From: Fodinibius salsisoli
GTDB lineage: Bacteria; Bacteroidota; Rhodothermia; Balneolales; Balneolaceae
Length of the DNA: 64,000 nucleotides
Assembly: GCF_026229185.1 (NCBI RefSeq)
Contig: NZ_JAGGJA010000008.1
Span: 186,001 to 250,000, forward strand
Direction: 5' to 3'
Each line of letters begins with the position of its first letter. Within the stretch, counting starts at the first letter, position 1. The position numbers were made by a program, and so were the translations under genes. The notes below the pieces were generated by a model. That model was not told where the DNA came from. It was given only the letters and a program-made list of their open reading frames with translations, and made no database searches. Shown here one piece after another: positions 20,993-26,777 of this stretch.

Positions 20993-21571
20993 CTACTTGT
21001 TCCATTTCCGCTGGAAACAGTAGTGCAGCCGACTTAGAATACGTGACTTTTTAGTCCGCACATTGGCTTCTGAAATACCAAAATGCTCACTGGCTTCTTT
21101 GGTCGTTATGTCAGGATTTTCAAGTATATGCTCAATAAACGCTCTCGATTTTTTTTTGAGGTTATTTAAACACACTTCCAATATCTTTTGCCGATCTTCA
21201 TCCTGCAAGTTTTCTATCTGTTGGCCGGGATCTTCCAAATGCTGCTCATAATTTTCTATATCCTCCAGAGTGCCGGTATCTTTGTTCCACTTGTCTTTTT
21301 TCATCCAAAAATACTCATTACGGCAAACCTTAATGAGGTAACTGAAAATTTGCTTTTCATTCCGAATTTTATCTTTCAAGATCTGCTCATAAACAATGAT
21401 AAGCGCTCGTTGTGTACATTCTTCAGCCTCTTGCTTATCTGCCCCCAATACTACCTTGGCATAATCTCTAAGTCTTGAAGTGAGTTCTTTCAGTAGCCTG
21501 TTTACTGTACCCTGATCACCTTCTTTCAGGGCATATACAAATTCGGAATAATCAACTCTGGAAGAACTCAA
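20993..21571 (-). CDS. ECF-type RNA polymerase sigma factor
   Basis: This 192-aa protein has sigma-70 regions 2 and 4. Region 2 (about residues 15-95) includes RDYAKVVLGADKQEAEECTQRALIIVYEQI and FSYLIKVCRNEYFWMKK. Region 4 (about 130-188) ends in a helix-turn-helix (TTKEASEHFGISEANVRTKKSRILSRL). Only a TTG start fits, because a stop lies shortly upstream and there is no early Met. It is divergent from the lipoprotein and CHAT genes, with a 384-bp AT-rich gap, and I infer it controls them or itself. The only anti-sigma-like protein nearby is at 25722-26465 on the far side of the CHAT gene. Confidence 0.88.
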   Translation of the reverse strand: MSSSRVDYSEFVYALKEGDQGTVNRLLKELTSRLRDYAKVVLGADKQEAEECTQRALIIVYEQILKDKIRNEKQIFSYLIKVCRNEYFWMKKDKWNKDTGTLEDIENYEQHLEDPGQQIENLQDEDRQKILEVCLNNLKKKSRAFIEHILENPDITTKEASEHFGISEANVRTKKSRILSRLHYCFQRKWNK

Positions 21572-21955
21572 TTGATGTGTAAATCTTAATTATCCAACTA
21601 ATTTTCCGGCTAAGCCAATAATAAAGCCAAACATTTCCTTATTCGAATATATAACTATTAATAAATCATCCAAATCTCACCTGATAAAAAAATTTTAAAA
21701 CCCATCCGACTAAATCTTTTAAATAATTGTTTTCATTAAACTTAAAGTCATGAAAATGGCATCTTATTTATAGAAAATAATATCTTATTTGCACTAAATA
21801 TTACTTTTACTCAAATTATTTTGTAACAATTGTCTTTCTTTCCACTCTTGTTAATGTAATGGTTATAGGCTTTCAGGGCCTTATTAGCTTAAAAAATTAC
21901 CCCATTACACTTTTTTATAAAACATCAAATACCTCAATAAAATCAAGGACTCATT
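21572..21955. other. AT-rich divergent promoter region, ECF sigma / lipoprotein-CHAT
   Basis: No coding frame is supported. It must hold promoters for the sigma gene on one side and for the lipoprotein and CHAT genes on the other. A near-repeat ATCTTATTTATAG...ATCTTATTTGCAC occurs around 21762-21794 and is the only patterned element I see. A precise promoter cannot be placed by eye. Confidence 0.5.
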
Positions 21956-22153
21956 ATGAAATCTTTCGCTCAGAAACTCATCGCTCTCTCATTCATTATC
22001 GCTCTTGCTACTGGTTGTGCTTCATCCGTAACTGACGCTGGCTTAAGCCCCGAAGCTGATACTCCTCAAACGGAACAGGTCACTCCCGATCAGCCAGATA
22101 ATCCTTTCGGTACTGAGCAAGATGTCCAACCTATCGTAGATAAACCCGAGTAA
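21956..22153 (+). CDS. Small lipoprotein of unknown function
   Basis: This is a 65-aa protein. Residues 1-20 are a lipoprotein signal with the lipobox ATGC (lipidated Cys21). The short mature part is acidic and rich in Pro, Asp and Gln (TPQTEQVTPDQPDNPF) and looks unstructured. AAGGA lies about 8 bp before the ATG, one of the clearer ribosome sites in the window. It is the first gene divergent from the ECF sigma gene and lies 162 bp before the CHAT gene. The position suggests it belongs to the same regulated unit. Confidence 0.75.
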   Translation: MKSFAQKLIALSFIIALATGCASSVTDAGLSPEADTPQTEQVTPDQPDNPFGTEQDVQPIVDKPE

Positions 22154-22315
22154 AATACGTGATTTACGTCATCCAAAGATGATGGCATAATTTCTTATAA
22201 CAGCCAAGAAGCGGATATCTGATAGCCTAACTTATTGAACTTGTTGGATTAGAATAGTATAGAATATTTTTTTAATGTGTAGATAGTAAAATTTACACCT
22301 ATACCTTCTAATCCA

Positions 22316-25300
22316 ATGTGGCTATTAGTCATACTTCTTGGCTTTTTTCAACCTGCTTCGGGGTCAACATCAAGTAATCCAATACTTGATCAGGCCAAAG
22401 CCCAGGGACAATACTATATTCAACAAATCCAGGAGAGGAATAAGCTGGATGAACATTTGTGGGCACTTACAGAGTTAAGTACATCGAACCCGCAAATAAA
22501 GAACTTTATTGAAAAAGAAGTCAACGAGATAGAACCCAACAGTGAGGTTCTCAATCTTTTTCGTGATATCGAAGAGACTACAGAAAAACAGCTAAAAAAA
22601 ATAGTATTTAAAACCGGCTCTAAAAATATTCTGATTGCCCTCCTATTATCAGATATCCCCAACAAAGAGAAAATTTATAATAATTTTGTTAGCTCATTTG
22701 GCTTTCAAAATTCTGGATCTATTAATTATCAAGCTATATGCCGTGCTATATTACAGCGTAAGAAGATATCAAGTCATACTCTTTCTGCCGAATCGTTTCA
22801 ACTGATCCATTTTTTCCTAATTTCAGATAAAAAACGTCGGGAATTTATTTCAGAAGATTACCTGAAAAAGATTGCAGCTAATTGGAAACCCAAACCTCAG
22901 GCAAGTAGCCCAAGCAGTTTAAATTTAAAAAGCATCACTCTTTTACAGTCTCTTTACTTACTTGATCGTTATGCAGAGATCACCCCTCTCCATCGTTCGG
23001 TTTTTCGTTCTAACCTATTTCCAACCTCAGCATTAAAGCTCCGATTCTATCGCTATATCGACTACTCGATCTACAGGACCGGTCGTTATGACCAAAACTT
23101 AGAACTTATCCGAAACTCCCTGCTTCCACTGACAAAATATCTGAATGATAAAAAGGCCGAATTAAGTGCGAAACAGCTGCTGGGCGTTTACTTATACAGT
23201 ATTGGGAAGCTTCACCAGGCACGAGATACCTACCAACAGGTTTTAGCAGAAATTGACGACAAAAGGATAGGTATTAATCGTACGTCCCTCTACAATAATT
23301 TGGGTATCACTTATCTGAAGCTAGGCGAGTATGACAAATATTTAGAACTTCAGTTCAAAGCTTTGGAAAAAGCAATAGAGGTAGAAAATTATGCTCATGA
23401 ATTAGACATCTATAATAACCTGTTTGTTTATTACAAAAGACTTAATGACCGAGAAAATGCTATAGATTATCTTAATAAAGCCTTAACCATAGCTCAACGA
23501 AAAGAACACTCTGAAGATTTAGGCATCATTTATATCTCTTTAGGATCCACTTCCCGAAAATTCAATGACAATCTTCAGGAATCTCAGTCATATTTTGCTC
23601 AGGCAAAAAAATATATAGATCCTCAGAATAACACGAAATACTTTATTGAACTACTCAATGAACAAGCGGAAACTTATGAGCAACAAAAAAAGTTTGAGCA
23701 GGCTTTAGTCAAGCATAATCGTGTTCTTGGATTGACGCCCCAAAAAGAGAACAACCCTACTTATATCGATGCCCTGGTCAATAAAGCTCTGATCAATCTG
23801 AAAATGGATCGGCTGCAAACGGCCAAAAAACTAATTGATCAATTTAGTTCCTCCCAATTACAGTATCTTGATTTTGAACAAATCGTCAAGGCTAATACTG
23901 TCAGGGCTAACTACCTGGAGGAAACGGGACAGCACACAGAAGCCCTGGAACTGCTTCGTCCAACTCTTGAACAGGTATTGGAACGTGCCCAAAGCAGCAC
24001 GGATTTACAAAGCGGATATTGGCATATTGCTGATGAATACCTTGATGCTTTTGATCTTGCTATAAATGTTCACCTCAAGCAGAATCAACCGGAAAAAGCC
24101 GTAACGATTTTAGATCAGCTTAAAACCATTAATGATGCTTCTATTTACCAGAACCCCCTTGTCAAGGCGAGTTTACTTAATGAGTCGGAGCTGACGCAGT
24201 ATAAAAATATTACCAATAGCCTTAATACACAGCGGAAAAACCTTTTGACCGTTCCAGAGGATAAGAAGTTTACGGTTAAGCAACGTATAAACGAATTAGA
24301 GTTGCAAAAACGAAAGTTTGATCGCAAGATTTCCTCTCAGACTGATCGCAACTCTGTTTCTATCTCAGAAATCCAGACTAAATTATCGGCACGGAAACTT
24401 ATCCTGCATATTACCGAACTCAATGATTTTTATTACCTAGCAAGGATAAGCCGTTCGGGAGTATCTGTTGATAAAGTTCCGTTTAACAAACAAACGCGTA
24501 AACTTTTTACCAATGCTGTTCAGCAAGTTGCCAACCACACTACTAATCTCGATTCACTTTATGCTATTTCAGAACTCTTAGGAGTTGAAGGCATTCCGGA
24601 TCGCATTAAAGAAATTACGGTAGTACCTGACAGCTATCTCTATCAGCTACCGGTAGATATTCTTCCTCTAAAAAGGCCACCACACCCTTATAGTTACGGT
24701 GCCACTCAATACTTTATCGAAAAATACCAAACGCACTATATCACGTCCCTCAATAGCTTTGATAAAGAAAACCAAAATGCTGCAAGCCGACAATATAAAT
24801 GGAATTACATCGGCTATGGAATTTCGGAATTTGACACCCATTCCAACAAGAACCTGGTCCCCTTACCCTTTGCTCAAGAGGAAGTTACTTCCATAAAAAA
24901 TCGCCTTAGCAACCTCCAAAATTTACAGACCTTTACCAATACAGGTAGTAAAAAAACAACCTTTTCTCGTACTGCTCCAGAGGCTCGCATTTTACATCTG
25001 GCTACCCACAGCGAGGTTTCGGAACGGGACCCCCTGTTCTCAACAATATACTTGAGTAAAGAAGACAGCGCCAACACTACAAATAATTTTACGGACCAAC
25101 TTTTTGCATACGAACTTTTTGGGCTCAACTTAAGTAATGAAATGATTATGCTAAATTCCTGTAAATCCGGCTCCGGCTCCTATATTCAGGGCACAGGAAT
25201 TATGGGCTTTAGTCGGGCATTACAGTACGCCGGGGCCAATTCATTGGTTCTCAATATTTGGTCCGTCAATGATATGCTCGCTTCTGAATTTGCTATACAC

Positions 25301-25555
25301 TTTTATGAACAGCTTAATGAGGGCAAATCCAAGGCTGAAGCATTACAGAATACCAAACGCTACTTTTTGGCTTCCAAAAATGCGAGTCCTCATTTCTGGG
25401 GCCCATATATGCTGATTGGTAATACTGACCCTATTGTAGAGCCTAATAGAACGATGAATCTTGCAATGGCCGGTTCATTTATCTTCTACTTTTTACTACT
25501 TGTCATTCTTTCTTATTTGCACCAAAAGGGAATATTATTGCGAGGGCAGTCATAG
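22316..25555 (+). CDS. Exported, membrane-anchored TPR-CHAT caspase-like protease
   Basis: This 1079-aa protein starts with a signal peptide or anchor (about residues 1-16), has a long helical region with at least five TPR-like repeats (about 285-490: LGVYLYSIGKLHQARDTYQQVL, YNNLGITYLKLGEYDKYLELQF, YNNLFVYYKRLNDRENAIDYL and others), and then a CHAT domain (about 690-1045). The catalytic pair is intact: His898 in LHLATHSE and Cys949 in LNSCKSGSG. A hydrophobic helix near 1052-1069 ends the protein, with a basic tail. CHAT domains are clan-CD cysteine proteases related to caspases and separase. This topology would put the protease in the periplasm, tethered to the inner membrane. Its neighbours are the ECF sigma and anti-sigma-like genes. 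The substrate is unknown. Confidence 0.9.
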   Translation: MWLLVILLGFFQPASGSTSSNPILDQAKAQGQYYIQQIQERNKLDEHLWALTELSTSNPQIKNFIEKEVNEIEPNSEVLNLFRDIEETTEKQLKKIVFKTGSKNILIALLLSDIPNKEKIYNNFVSSFGFQNSGSINYQAICRAILQRKKISSHTLSAESFQLIHFFLISDKKRREFISEDYLKKIAANWKPKPQASSPSSLNLKSITLLQSLYLLDRYAEITPLHRSVFRSNLFPTSALKLRFYRYIDYSIYRTGRYDQNLELIRNSLLPLTKYLNDKKAELSAKQLLGVYLYSIGKLHQARDTYQQVLAEIDDKRIGINRTSLYNNLGITYLKLGEYDKYLELQFKALEKAIEVENYAHELDIYNNLFVYYKRLNDRENAIDYLNKALTIAQRKEHSEDLGIIYISLGSTSRKFNDNLQESQSYFAQAKKYIDPQNNTKYFIELLNEQAETYEQQKKFEQALVKHNRVLGLTPQKENNPTYIDALVNKALINLKMDRLQTAKKLIDQFSSSQLQYLDFEQIVKANTVRANYLEETGQHTEALELLRPTLEQVLERAQSSTDLQSGYWHIADEYLDAFDLAINVHLKQNQPEKAVTILDQLKTINDASIYQNPLVKASLLNESELTQYKNITNSLNTQRKNLLTVPEDKKFTVKQRINELELQKRKFDRKISSQTDRNSVSISEIQTKLSARKLILHITELNDFYYLARISRSGVSVDKVPFNKQTRKLFTNAVQQVANHTTNLDSLYAISELLGVEGIPDRIKEITVVPDSYLYQLPVDILPLKRPPHPYSYGATQYFIEKYQTHYITSLNSFDKENQNAASRQYKWNYIGYGISEFDTHSNKNLVPLPFAQEEVTSIKNRLSNLQNLQTFTNTGSKKTTFSRTAPEARILHLATHSEVSERDPLFSTIYLSKEDSANTTNNFTDQLFAYELFGLNLSNEMIMLNSCKSGSGSYIQGTGIMGFSRALQYAGANSLVLNIWSVNDMLASEFAIHFYEQLNEGKSKAEALQNTKRYFLASKNASPHFWGPYMLIGNTDPIVEPNRTMNLAMAGSFIFYFLLLVILSYLHQKGILLRGQS

Positions 25556-25640
25556 TAACAAATAGATTTATTTGGAATAAAGAAGGGGGAACTAAGCAAT
25601 AACCTTGGCCGCTACTCAAGAGATTTCGTGCAAAAAAAGA

Positions 25641-25658
25641 GAGGGTAGTTACACCCTC
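25641..25658 (-). terminator. Terminator of the membrane TPR gene
   Basis: GAGGGT (25641-25646) pairs with ACCCTC (25653-25658). On the minus strand the hairpin runs into TCTTTTTTTG. It lies 63 bp past the stop of the 25722-26465 gene. Confidence 0.75.
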
Positions 25659-25721
25659 CCGTAGGAACTATTCTAAAAAATTCTGCTAGACTATCAGTAG
25701 GATAGAATCCGTGATAATTTC

Positions 25722-26465
25722 TTATTCTGATAATGCATCGAGATAACGTTCTGCCACACGACGATAGGCTCCGTTAAGCTCGTAAGCTTTTTGCATATCT
25801 GCCCGCGCTTCTGAAATCAACTCTTTTTGCAGATAGGCATTCCCCCGATACCAATATGCTTTCTCCAGCGATAGCACATCAATATCTGCCTGTCCATTTT
25901 GCTCAATAACATTGCCATAGACTTTTATCGCTTGGCTATATTCGGCTTTGTTATAATATAAAGAACCAAGTGTTAAGCTCAGTTCAACCTTCTTGTCTGA
26001 GGCTAATGCTGCATTCTGAAGCTTACCTTCCAGCAAGTTGATAGCCTGCGTATCATTACCTTCATTAGCAAGTATAATCGCTTTTTCGACGGCATCCTCT
26101 TCGTTCTCAGATGACAGTGTGCCATCTGATGAACGATAATACTGAAGTTCAACATCATCTACAGGAGAAATGAGTTGTTGCGTTGACTGGGAAGCAAAGT
26201 TAATAACGCCAAATACCGTTACCAAAATAGCTACCACAGCAGCTGCTGCATAGTACACATAGGTTGACAATGGAGTAACCTTTGCAGTTTCTTTGCGCTT
26301 ATCCACAATCCCCTTAAGGTTGGCCACGCTCTTCATATAATCCATATACCTCTCATCCTGGATTAACTCTGCCCAAAGCTCATCAACTTCACGAGCAGAA
26401 AGCTGCCCCTCTACATAGAGATCAATTTTATGTTTTAATTCTTCGTTATTTAGTTGCTCAATCAT
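25722..26465 (-). CDS. Membrane TPR protein with anti-sigma-like architecture
   Basis: This 247-aa protein has a short cytoplasmic N-terminal domain (about residues 1-65: LKHKIDLYVEGQLSAREVDELWAEL), one transmembrane helix (about 70-90: YYAAAAVVAILVTVFGVI) and a periplasmic TPR-like part (about 120-245: LGSLYYNKAEYSQAIKVYGNVI, YWYRGNAYLQKELISEARADM). The N-terminal pattern (a helix, then an 'LYVEGQLSAREVDEL' type element) is that of Bacteroidota anti-sigma-like proteins. No zinc-binding His/Cys motif is present. It lies convergent to the CHAT gene, with its sigma partner probably the ECF gene at 20993. Anti-sigma activity is an inference. The decayed gene at 1783-2181 has the same layout. Confidence 0.75.
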   Translation of the reverse strand: MIEQLNNEELKHKIDLYVEGQLSAREVDELWAELIQDERYMDYMKSVANLKGIVDKRKETAKVTPLSTYVYYAAAAVVAILVTVFGVINFASQSTQQLISPVDDVELQYYRSSDGTLSSENEEDAVEKAIILANEGNDTQAINLLEGKLQNAALASDKKVELSLTLGSLYYNKAEYSQAIKVYGNVIEQNGQADIDVLSLEKAYWYRGNAYLQKELISEARADMQKAYELNGAYRRVAERYLDALSE

Positions 26466-26777
26466 AATTTTTCCAATTTATTTTTCGGAAAAAGATCCTG
26501 ATAGTGTTAATCTTTTTTACTTTTATACATCCAACGTTCCTTTAAACTCCCAAAAGAACGAAATTATTTCCTGCGATCATGTCAAATTTAGATTGCCAGG
26601 GAAATATTTAATCCCTTCATTAAACAAGAGTGGTCAAAAAGGGGATTTGTTACAAAAAAGTTAAAAAAACATTCCATCCAATATTATTTACTCCCAAAAT
26701 AACTGTTGTAATCTCATTTAATCCACGTATTTTAGACCCTAATACAACTTTCATTATAAGCCATTCCGAATCTACGA
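26466..26777. other. Gene-free divergent region between the TPR gene and the TlpA-like gene
   Basis: This AT-rich stretch has no supported gene. The short open frame within it has no protein character and overlaps the start of the next gene out of frame. It should contain promoters in both directions. Confidence 0.5.

Follow-up and report, generated by a model that had tools for sequence, protein, structure and literature searches.

The window, i.e. the whole 64,000-nucleotide stretch of Fodinibius salsisoli DNA that was analysed, carries four neighbouring genes, encoding a sigma factor, a 65-aa lipoprotein, a TPR-CHAT protein (hereafter CHAT) and a membrane TPR protein (hereafter TM-TPR), all of which the first-pass annotation had placed correctly from the ORF list:

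20993..21571, minus strand: ECF sigma factor gene, 192 aa (ORF, TIGR02937 match and orthologues adjoining CHAT in Balneolales)
21956..22153, plus strand: lipoprotein gene, 65 aa (ORF, orthologues and tandem copies)
22316..25555, plus strand: TPR-CHAT gene, 1079 aa (ORF, PF12770, TPR_12 and AF2 model)
25722..26465, minus strand: TM-TPR gene, 247 aa (ORF and TPR_2)

The sigma factor gene is divergent from the lipoprotein and CHAT genes, in agreement with that annotation. Its description of CHAT as followed by TM-TPR is true of the position but not of an operon, since TM-TPR lies on the minus strand and is convergent with CHAT. A common promoter-like motif precedes two of the genes, and a stem lies between the lipoprotein and CHAT:

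21822..21850, plus strand: promoter-like motif TGTAACA-N15-ACTCTTG, 104 nt ahead of where the lipoprotein gene starts
22168..22186, plus strand: terminator-like stem between lipoprotein and CHAT, found by consensus scan only (possible attenuation)
26625..26654, minus strand: the same promoter-like motif again, some 158 nt ahead of where TM-TPR starts

TGTAACA-N15-ACTCTTG has two matches in the 64-kb window vs. 0.01 expected, one ahead of the lipoprotein and one ahead of TM-TPR. Among relatives the motif is conserved at both of these places, the one ahead of the lipoprotein being kept in Balneolaceae; in Fodinibius relatives the promoter reads TGTAACA-N15-ACTCTTGT. The source genome holds six matches vs. 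none in the control, and the genus 51 vs. three, and no match was obtained in the two congeners that lack a close CHAT orthologue. Elsewhere (L215-L247), the motif precedes genes which, named by eye, encode REC-domain response regulators, HU-like proteins, lipoproteins, secreted peptidases and an RND pump. This motif would most naturally be read by the sigma factor encoded at the locus. As for the stem, it could make the lipoprotein mRNA more abundant than that of CHAT.

Architecture of the encoded proteins

The sigma protein scores 50.6 bits against the sigma70-ECF model TIGR02937 (NCBIfam), above the cut-off of 42.9, and stays below the cut-off of the Pfam region 4 profile. The 65-aa lipoprotein has a lipobox (LATGC) and a conserved C-terminal tail (..PIV-K-P-E). 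Its gene is often present as two to four tandem, near-identical copies with a common tail ..PI[VI]x[KR]P.. (Balneolaceae loci L005, L006, L010, L014, L026, L034, L040, L050 and others).

In profile searches, CHAT matches PF12770 with an E-value of 3.6e-48, as well as TPR models including TPR_12; the PF12770 match and the His/Cys dyad place it in the CHAT peptidase family, with proteolysis as its predicted activity. The segments and residues of CHAT and TM-TPR discussed below are the following:

22316..22366, plus strand: N-terminal hydrophobic, signal-like segment of CHAT, approximately residues 1-17 (hydropathy; recurs in full-length orthologues)
24881..24883, plus strand: codon of Glu856 of CHAT, candidate S1-pocket acid for a P1 Arg (invariant in 39 Balneolales CHATs; tops a blind column scan)
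25007..25009, plus strand: codon of the catalytic His898 of CHAT (invariant, 39/39)
25160..25162, plus strand: codon of the catalytic Cys949 of CHAT (invariant, 39/39)
25454..25510, plus strand: C-terminal TM helix of CHAT, approximately residues 1047-1065 (hydropathy 2.2, basic tail SYLHQKGILLRGQS, same in orthologues; helix 1045-1070 in the model)
26130..26153, minus strand: juxtamembrane motif V-E-L-Q-Y-Y-R-S of TM-TPR, residues 105-112, candidate cut site (Arg111 invariant, 38/38)
26196..26258, minus strand: TM helix of TM-TPR, approximately residues 70-90 (hydropathy and alignment)

The first-pass annotation was right about the positions of His898 and Cys949 and about both residues being intact. 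The N-terminal signal and C-terminal membrane helix it had described are also borne out by hydropathy and charge, a hydrophobic N-terminus and a C-terminal helix recurring in full-length orthologues. Among the Balneolales orthologues, 37 of the 39 CHAT tails have at least one Lys or Arg after the TM helix, and several CHAT homologues of other families possess clear, textbook signal peptides. CHAT is thus predicted to be exported and anchored by its C-terminal helix, with its domain outside the inner membrane, the export of CHAT and the topology of both proteins being a reading of hydropathy and charge. Since the anchor directly follows the CHAT domain, this domain would sit near the membrane. 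A reduced form occurs at locus L101 (5249-6733), where a sigma factor and a TM-TPR are accompanied by a minimal CHAT of 250 aa, with an N-terminal hydrophobic segment and a C-terminal helix and no TPR domain.

The AF2 model of CHAT (mean pLDDT of 76.5) has DdvA as its best structural match (E 5e-12), followed by human separase and the TPR-CHAT of Craspase. With a profile of the whole protein, only TPR proteins were found in the PDB, while the CHAT domain alone reached DdvA (E 2e-9) and Csx29. As DdvA combines anti-sigma, TPR and CHAT parts in one chain, it supports a functional link between CHAT and TM-TPR at this locus. The earlier remark that the CHAT proteases usually studied are cytosolic needs qualifying in view of DdvA, a transmembrane anti-sigma factor with a CHAT domain of its own.

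TM-TPR is laid out as three N-terminal helices, a TM helix and a TPR domain (helices 2-18, 24-36, 40-60 and 68-91 in the model, then the TPR helices, with low to middling confidence before residue 125). The basic residues before its TM helix suggest a cytosolic N-terminus and an extracytoplasmic TPR domain. No anti-sigma family passed its cut-off for TM-TPR in the profile search, and weak RseA_N and zf-HC2 matches were obtained with distant homologues only; Csx30 was not matched in the families searched.

Conservation in Balneolales and other Bacteroidota

According to tblastn searches of the flanks, the order sigma(-), lipoprotein(+), CHAT(+), TM-TPR(-) is kept in nearly all Balneolaceae loci. 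In the other families of Balneolales, the sigma factor, CHAT and TM-TPR remain and the neighbouring thioredoxin and GH3 genes are gone. CHAT relatives with an E-value below 1e-80 are confined to Balneolales among the genomes sampled, and the trio of sigma factor, CHAT and TM-TPR recurs in other Bacteroidota families in two main layouts, either as one operon (sigma, TM-TPR, CHAT) or as sigma and TM-TPR convergent with CHAT. The conserved synteny for which the first-pass annotation had proposed to look is thus present, the homologues being neighbours in related genomes and CHAT having a signal-like segment rather than the appearance of a cytosolic protein.

The analysis was extended to 148 Bacteroidota TM-TPRs, of which about a dozen come from loci first chosen by their CHAT and the others from searches based solely on TM-TPR similarity. 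In 133 cases the gene lies directly behind an ECF sigma gene (57 overlapping, 54 within 30 bp), the usual position for transmembrane anti-sigma factors; at the locus studied here, the two are separated by CHAT and the lipoprotein. A CHAT gene lies within 4 kb in 73 of the 148 cases, 44 of these within 50 bp, vs. a chance expectation of about 0.3% for a CHAT that near. Because of these two counts, TM-TPR is very probably an anti-sigma factor and CHAT its partner, and the anti-sigma-like character attributed to TM-TPR on first inspection finds support in its sigma neighbours, with a modelled layout that would fit. Binding and inhibition of the sigma factor by TM-TPR would follow from this assignment.

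TM-TPRs that keep the site Arg discussed below but have no CHAT within 5 kb were examined further; in 11 genomes the sole CHAT was found 5.5-13 kb from TM-TPR. The 4.85-Mb source genome itself encodes two further CHAT proteins, both on another contig. These two exported CHATs lack the C-terminal helix, and their genes are situated approximately 5 and 9 kb from a second sigma/TM-TPR operon (L070 286-1730; C11:481286-482730 in the source genome), whose TM-TPR has a possible site ..PTLRS..

A candidate cut site and a candidate pocket residue

Arg111 is invariant in all 38 distinct Balneolales TM-TPRs aligned, lying some 20 residues beyond the membrane within a linker that varies elsewhere. The surrounding segment is mostly I-E-L-D-Y-Y-R-S or I-G-L-D-V-V-R-S in Balneolales; beyond this order, it reads P-I-x-R-G/S, or D-P-G-L-P-x-x-M in some lineages. 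The cleavage motif of separase is [D/E/S]-hydrophobic-E-x-x-R, and Slk19 is cut by it after D-x-x-R (PMC12609080). Arg111 appears to stand in a comparable setting and is a candidate cut site of CHAT.

A blind scan of all CHAT columns against the class of the TM-TPR site residue (Arg/Lys or not) ranked Glu856 first for association with a basic site. An acid occupies this column in 46 of the 47 pairs with a basic site vs. one of the 21 pairs without, and in later loci it accompanies 20 of 22 basic sites, along with one Met site without the acid and one Ser site with it. Exceptions to the pairing are L251 (Ala with an Arg site), L280 (Ile with a Lys site), L160 and L253 (Glu retained with a site that lacks Arg) and L080. 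The association is weaker than it looks because the sequences are related: the data did not reject placing every non-basic, non-acid pair in one clade (p-AU 0.59), so that few evolutionary events may account for it. Independent pairs were too few for a sign test, and a statistically independent co-change of pocket and site was accordingly not retained.

In Arg-cutting clan CD enzymes the S1 acid stands where the first helix begins, as for Asp163 in gingipain and a Glu in separases (PMC4626109). Glu856 seems to fall at the same place, as read from the sequence and not from superposition. The P1-binding Asp of separase (D2070 in human, D2151 in Chaetomium) has no acidic counterpart here, mapping to Ser990 via K670 of Csx29, and Glu856 may serve in its stead. 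Csx29 itself has a Glu at or beside the Glu856 column (at the edge of the profile alignment), though Craspase cuts after Met, Leu or Ala. Asp986 (W-x-V-x-D) had also been considered as the S1 residue, as it seemed to covary with the site; the separase Asp falls four residues later and the changes occur inside two clades only. It was withdrawn in favour of Glu856, which had come out of a scan of all columns.

Concerning the loss of either partner, CHAT is nearby in one of the 20 TM-TPRs without Arg, Lys, Met or Leu at the site vs. 68 of the 128 others. The genomes devoid of any CHAT mostly have decayed sites (G125, G129, G208, G288, G663, G719 and G863). An apparent retention of the Arg where CHAT is absent turned out to be mostly wrong, CHAT lying just outside the sequence stretch examined; three true exceptions stay, namely CHAT-less congeners which keep the site Arg (G322, G263 and G351), other members of that genus having CHAT. 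In two Met-type TM-TPR orthologues (L201 and L202), for which no upstream sigma gene was detected and around which 4 kb hold no CHAT, the conserved site is gone; G863 has no CHAT at all. The two orthologues offer a natural test case for site decay.

Proposed circuit, alternatives and known systems

Comparison of the genomes established the conserved gene set, the protein architectures, the invariant catalytic and site residues and the common motif. From these we infer sigma binding, cleavage and where it occurs, the signal and what the lipoprotein does as follows. The locus would encode a self-regulated ECF sigma circuit with CHAT as the site-1 protease that cuts the TM-TPR anti-sigma factor after Arg111, which we consider probable with moderate confidence. 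The cytosolic N-terminus of TM-TPR would hold the sigma factor at the membrane, with the TPR domain outside, in the compartment which the exported, C-terminally anchored CHAT also faces. A signal, perhaps sensed by the TPR solenoid of CHAT or by the small lipoprotein (which, as a guess, may report on the envelope to this solenoid), would lead CHAT to cut TM-TPR after Arg111, some 20 residues from the membrane, which would constitute the first (site-1) step of regulated intramembrane proteolysis. Release of the sigma factor would then be completed by an RseP-type protease, one of which is encoded in the source genome. Once free, the sigma factor would transcribe both lipoprotein-CHAT and TM-TPR from the common motif, providing positive and negative feedback. 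The first-pass annotation had suggested an envelope-stress sensing and proteolysis circuit in which CHAT might cut the anti-sigma-like protein. Conserved synteny, an apparently extracytoplasmic CHAT domain and an anti-sigma-like TM-TPR sustain part of this reading, and the cleavage it proposed gains an independent candidate site, together with a pocket residue to match it and a promoter in common; the cut itself, the stress signal and the part played by the lipoprotein would be predictions of the circuit.

The identical synteny and the conservation of the Arg would also fit if TM-TPR were an anti-sigma factor that binds CHAT and whose Arg segment is a pseudosubstrate or docking site, keeping CHAT off as securin does with separase, the real substrates being other envelope proteins, perhaps the lipoprotein. 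Securin does have a pseudosubstrate motif by which separase is blocked (PMC6858450). The site is, however, a short, isolated, membrane-adjacent segment with a small residue after the Arg, as a site-1 cut would show, and Craspase is a case of a TPR-CHAT cutting a sigma inhibitor. We regard this arrangement as rather unlikely. We give similarly little credence to CHAT being an output of the sigma factor, i.e. a stress-induced envelope protease for other substrates, with a different protease or a conformational change accounting for the release of TM-TPR. The lipoprotein-CHAT unit has the promoter motif of TM-TPR and is probably sigma-induced, and the three CHAT-less genomes that keep the Arg site are in line with such an output, but it leaves unexplained both the pocket/site association and the decayed sites in most CHAT-less genomes.

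A defence or cell-death system, in which phage or damage triggers CHAT and the sigma factor controls defence genes, as for Craspase and DdvS, draws on the nearest structural relatives, Csx29 and DdvA, both belonging to defence regulation. It is nevertheless quite improbable here, given that the PADLOC matches are weak (a generic TPR hit with CHAT and two marginal hits with the sigma protein) and that the genes behind the motif resemble those for lipoproteins, secreted peptidases, an RND pump and response regulators. That the genes are neighbours by chance or through general synteny, with no common function, is scarcely credible: in Balneolaceae, TM-TPR also has conserved thioredoxin and GH3 neighbours, but the trio outlasts them and recurs in many Bacteroidota families in several orientations, and the synteny counts contradict such a coincidence.

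The proposed circuit, with CHAT as the site-1 protease of TM-TPR, can be set against several known systems. In Craspase/CASP, a TPR-CHAT protease (Csx29), an ECF sigma factor (CASP-sigma) and a sigma-inhibiting substrate (Csx30) are encoded together, and Csx29 cuts Csx30 (PMC10028731). This type III-E CRISPR system differs in being cytosolic and activated by target RNA via Cas7-11, with cut sites that are unconserved and not after Arg (PMC11106740), whereas CHAT is predicted here to be exported and anchored, the inhibitor to span the membrane and the candidate site is invariant. Neither Cas7-11 (gRAMP) nor Csx30 or Csx31 was seen among the ORFs flanking the locus, nor any CRISPR gene at the locus. 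In the DdvS/DdvA pair of Myxococcus xanthus, the transmembrane anti-sigma factor DdvA likewise has a CHAT domain, but in a single chain instead of two proteins. The RseA/DegS/RseP sigma-E pathway of E. coli shares an anchored protease making the first, outer-side cut of a membrane anti-sigma factor (PMC8103513), DegS being an HtrA serine protease with a PDZ domain and CHAT a clan CD cysteine protease with a TPR solenoid. As for separase, it too joins helical repeats to a caspase-like protease and cuts after Arg in an acidic E/D-x-x-R setting, although the eukaryotic enzyme cleaves cohesin in the nucleus or cytosol.

In the literature searched, we found no paper describing the sigma/CHAT/TM-TPR trio, nor an exported, separate and widely conserved TPR-CHAT with a separase-like site. 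What is already known is a cytosolic TPR-CHAT cutting an ECF sigma inhibitor (Craspase, PMC10028731) and a fusion of anti-sigma factor and CHAT (DdvA); what is new is the invariant Arg of TM-TPR in a separase-like setting, the Glu856 association and the common motif ahead of lipoprotein-CHAT and TM-TPR. As a tentative extension, which may well prove too broad, the separase-like TPR-CHATs could form a Bacteroidota-wide class of envelope signalling as proteases dedicated to the site-1 cut of ECF anti-sigma factors, with a pocket that changes along with the cut site, Craspase (cytosolic) and DdvA (fused) being derivatives or cousins of an older circuit. A few protease families (DegS, signal peptidase and PrsW) are known to make the site-1 cut in ECF anti-sigma factors. 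If the proposal is true, a separase-like enzyme would be a new protease class in envelope signalling, with a cut site predicted at the residue level, and a likely function would be available for many unannotated TPR-CHAT and TPR genes of Bacteroidota, as would a non-CRISPR setting for sigma-inhibitor cleavage of the Craspase type.
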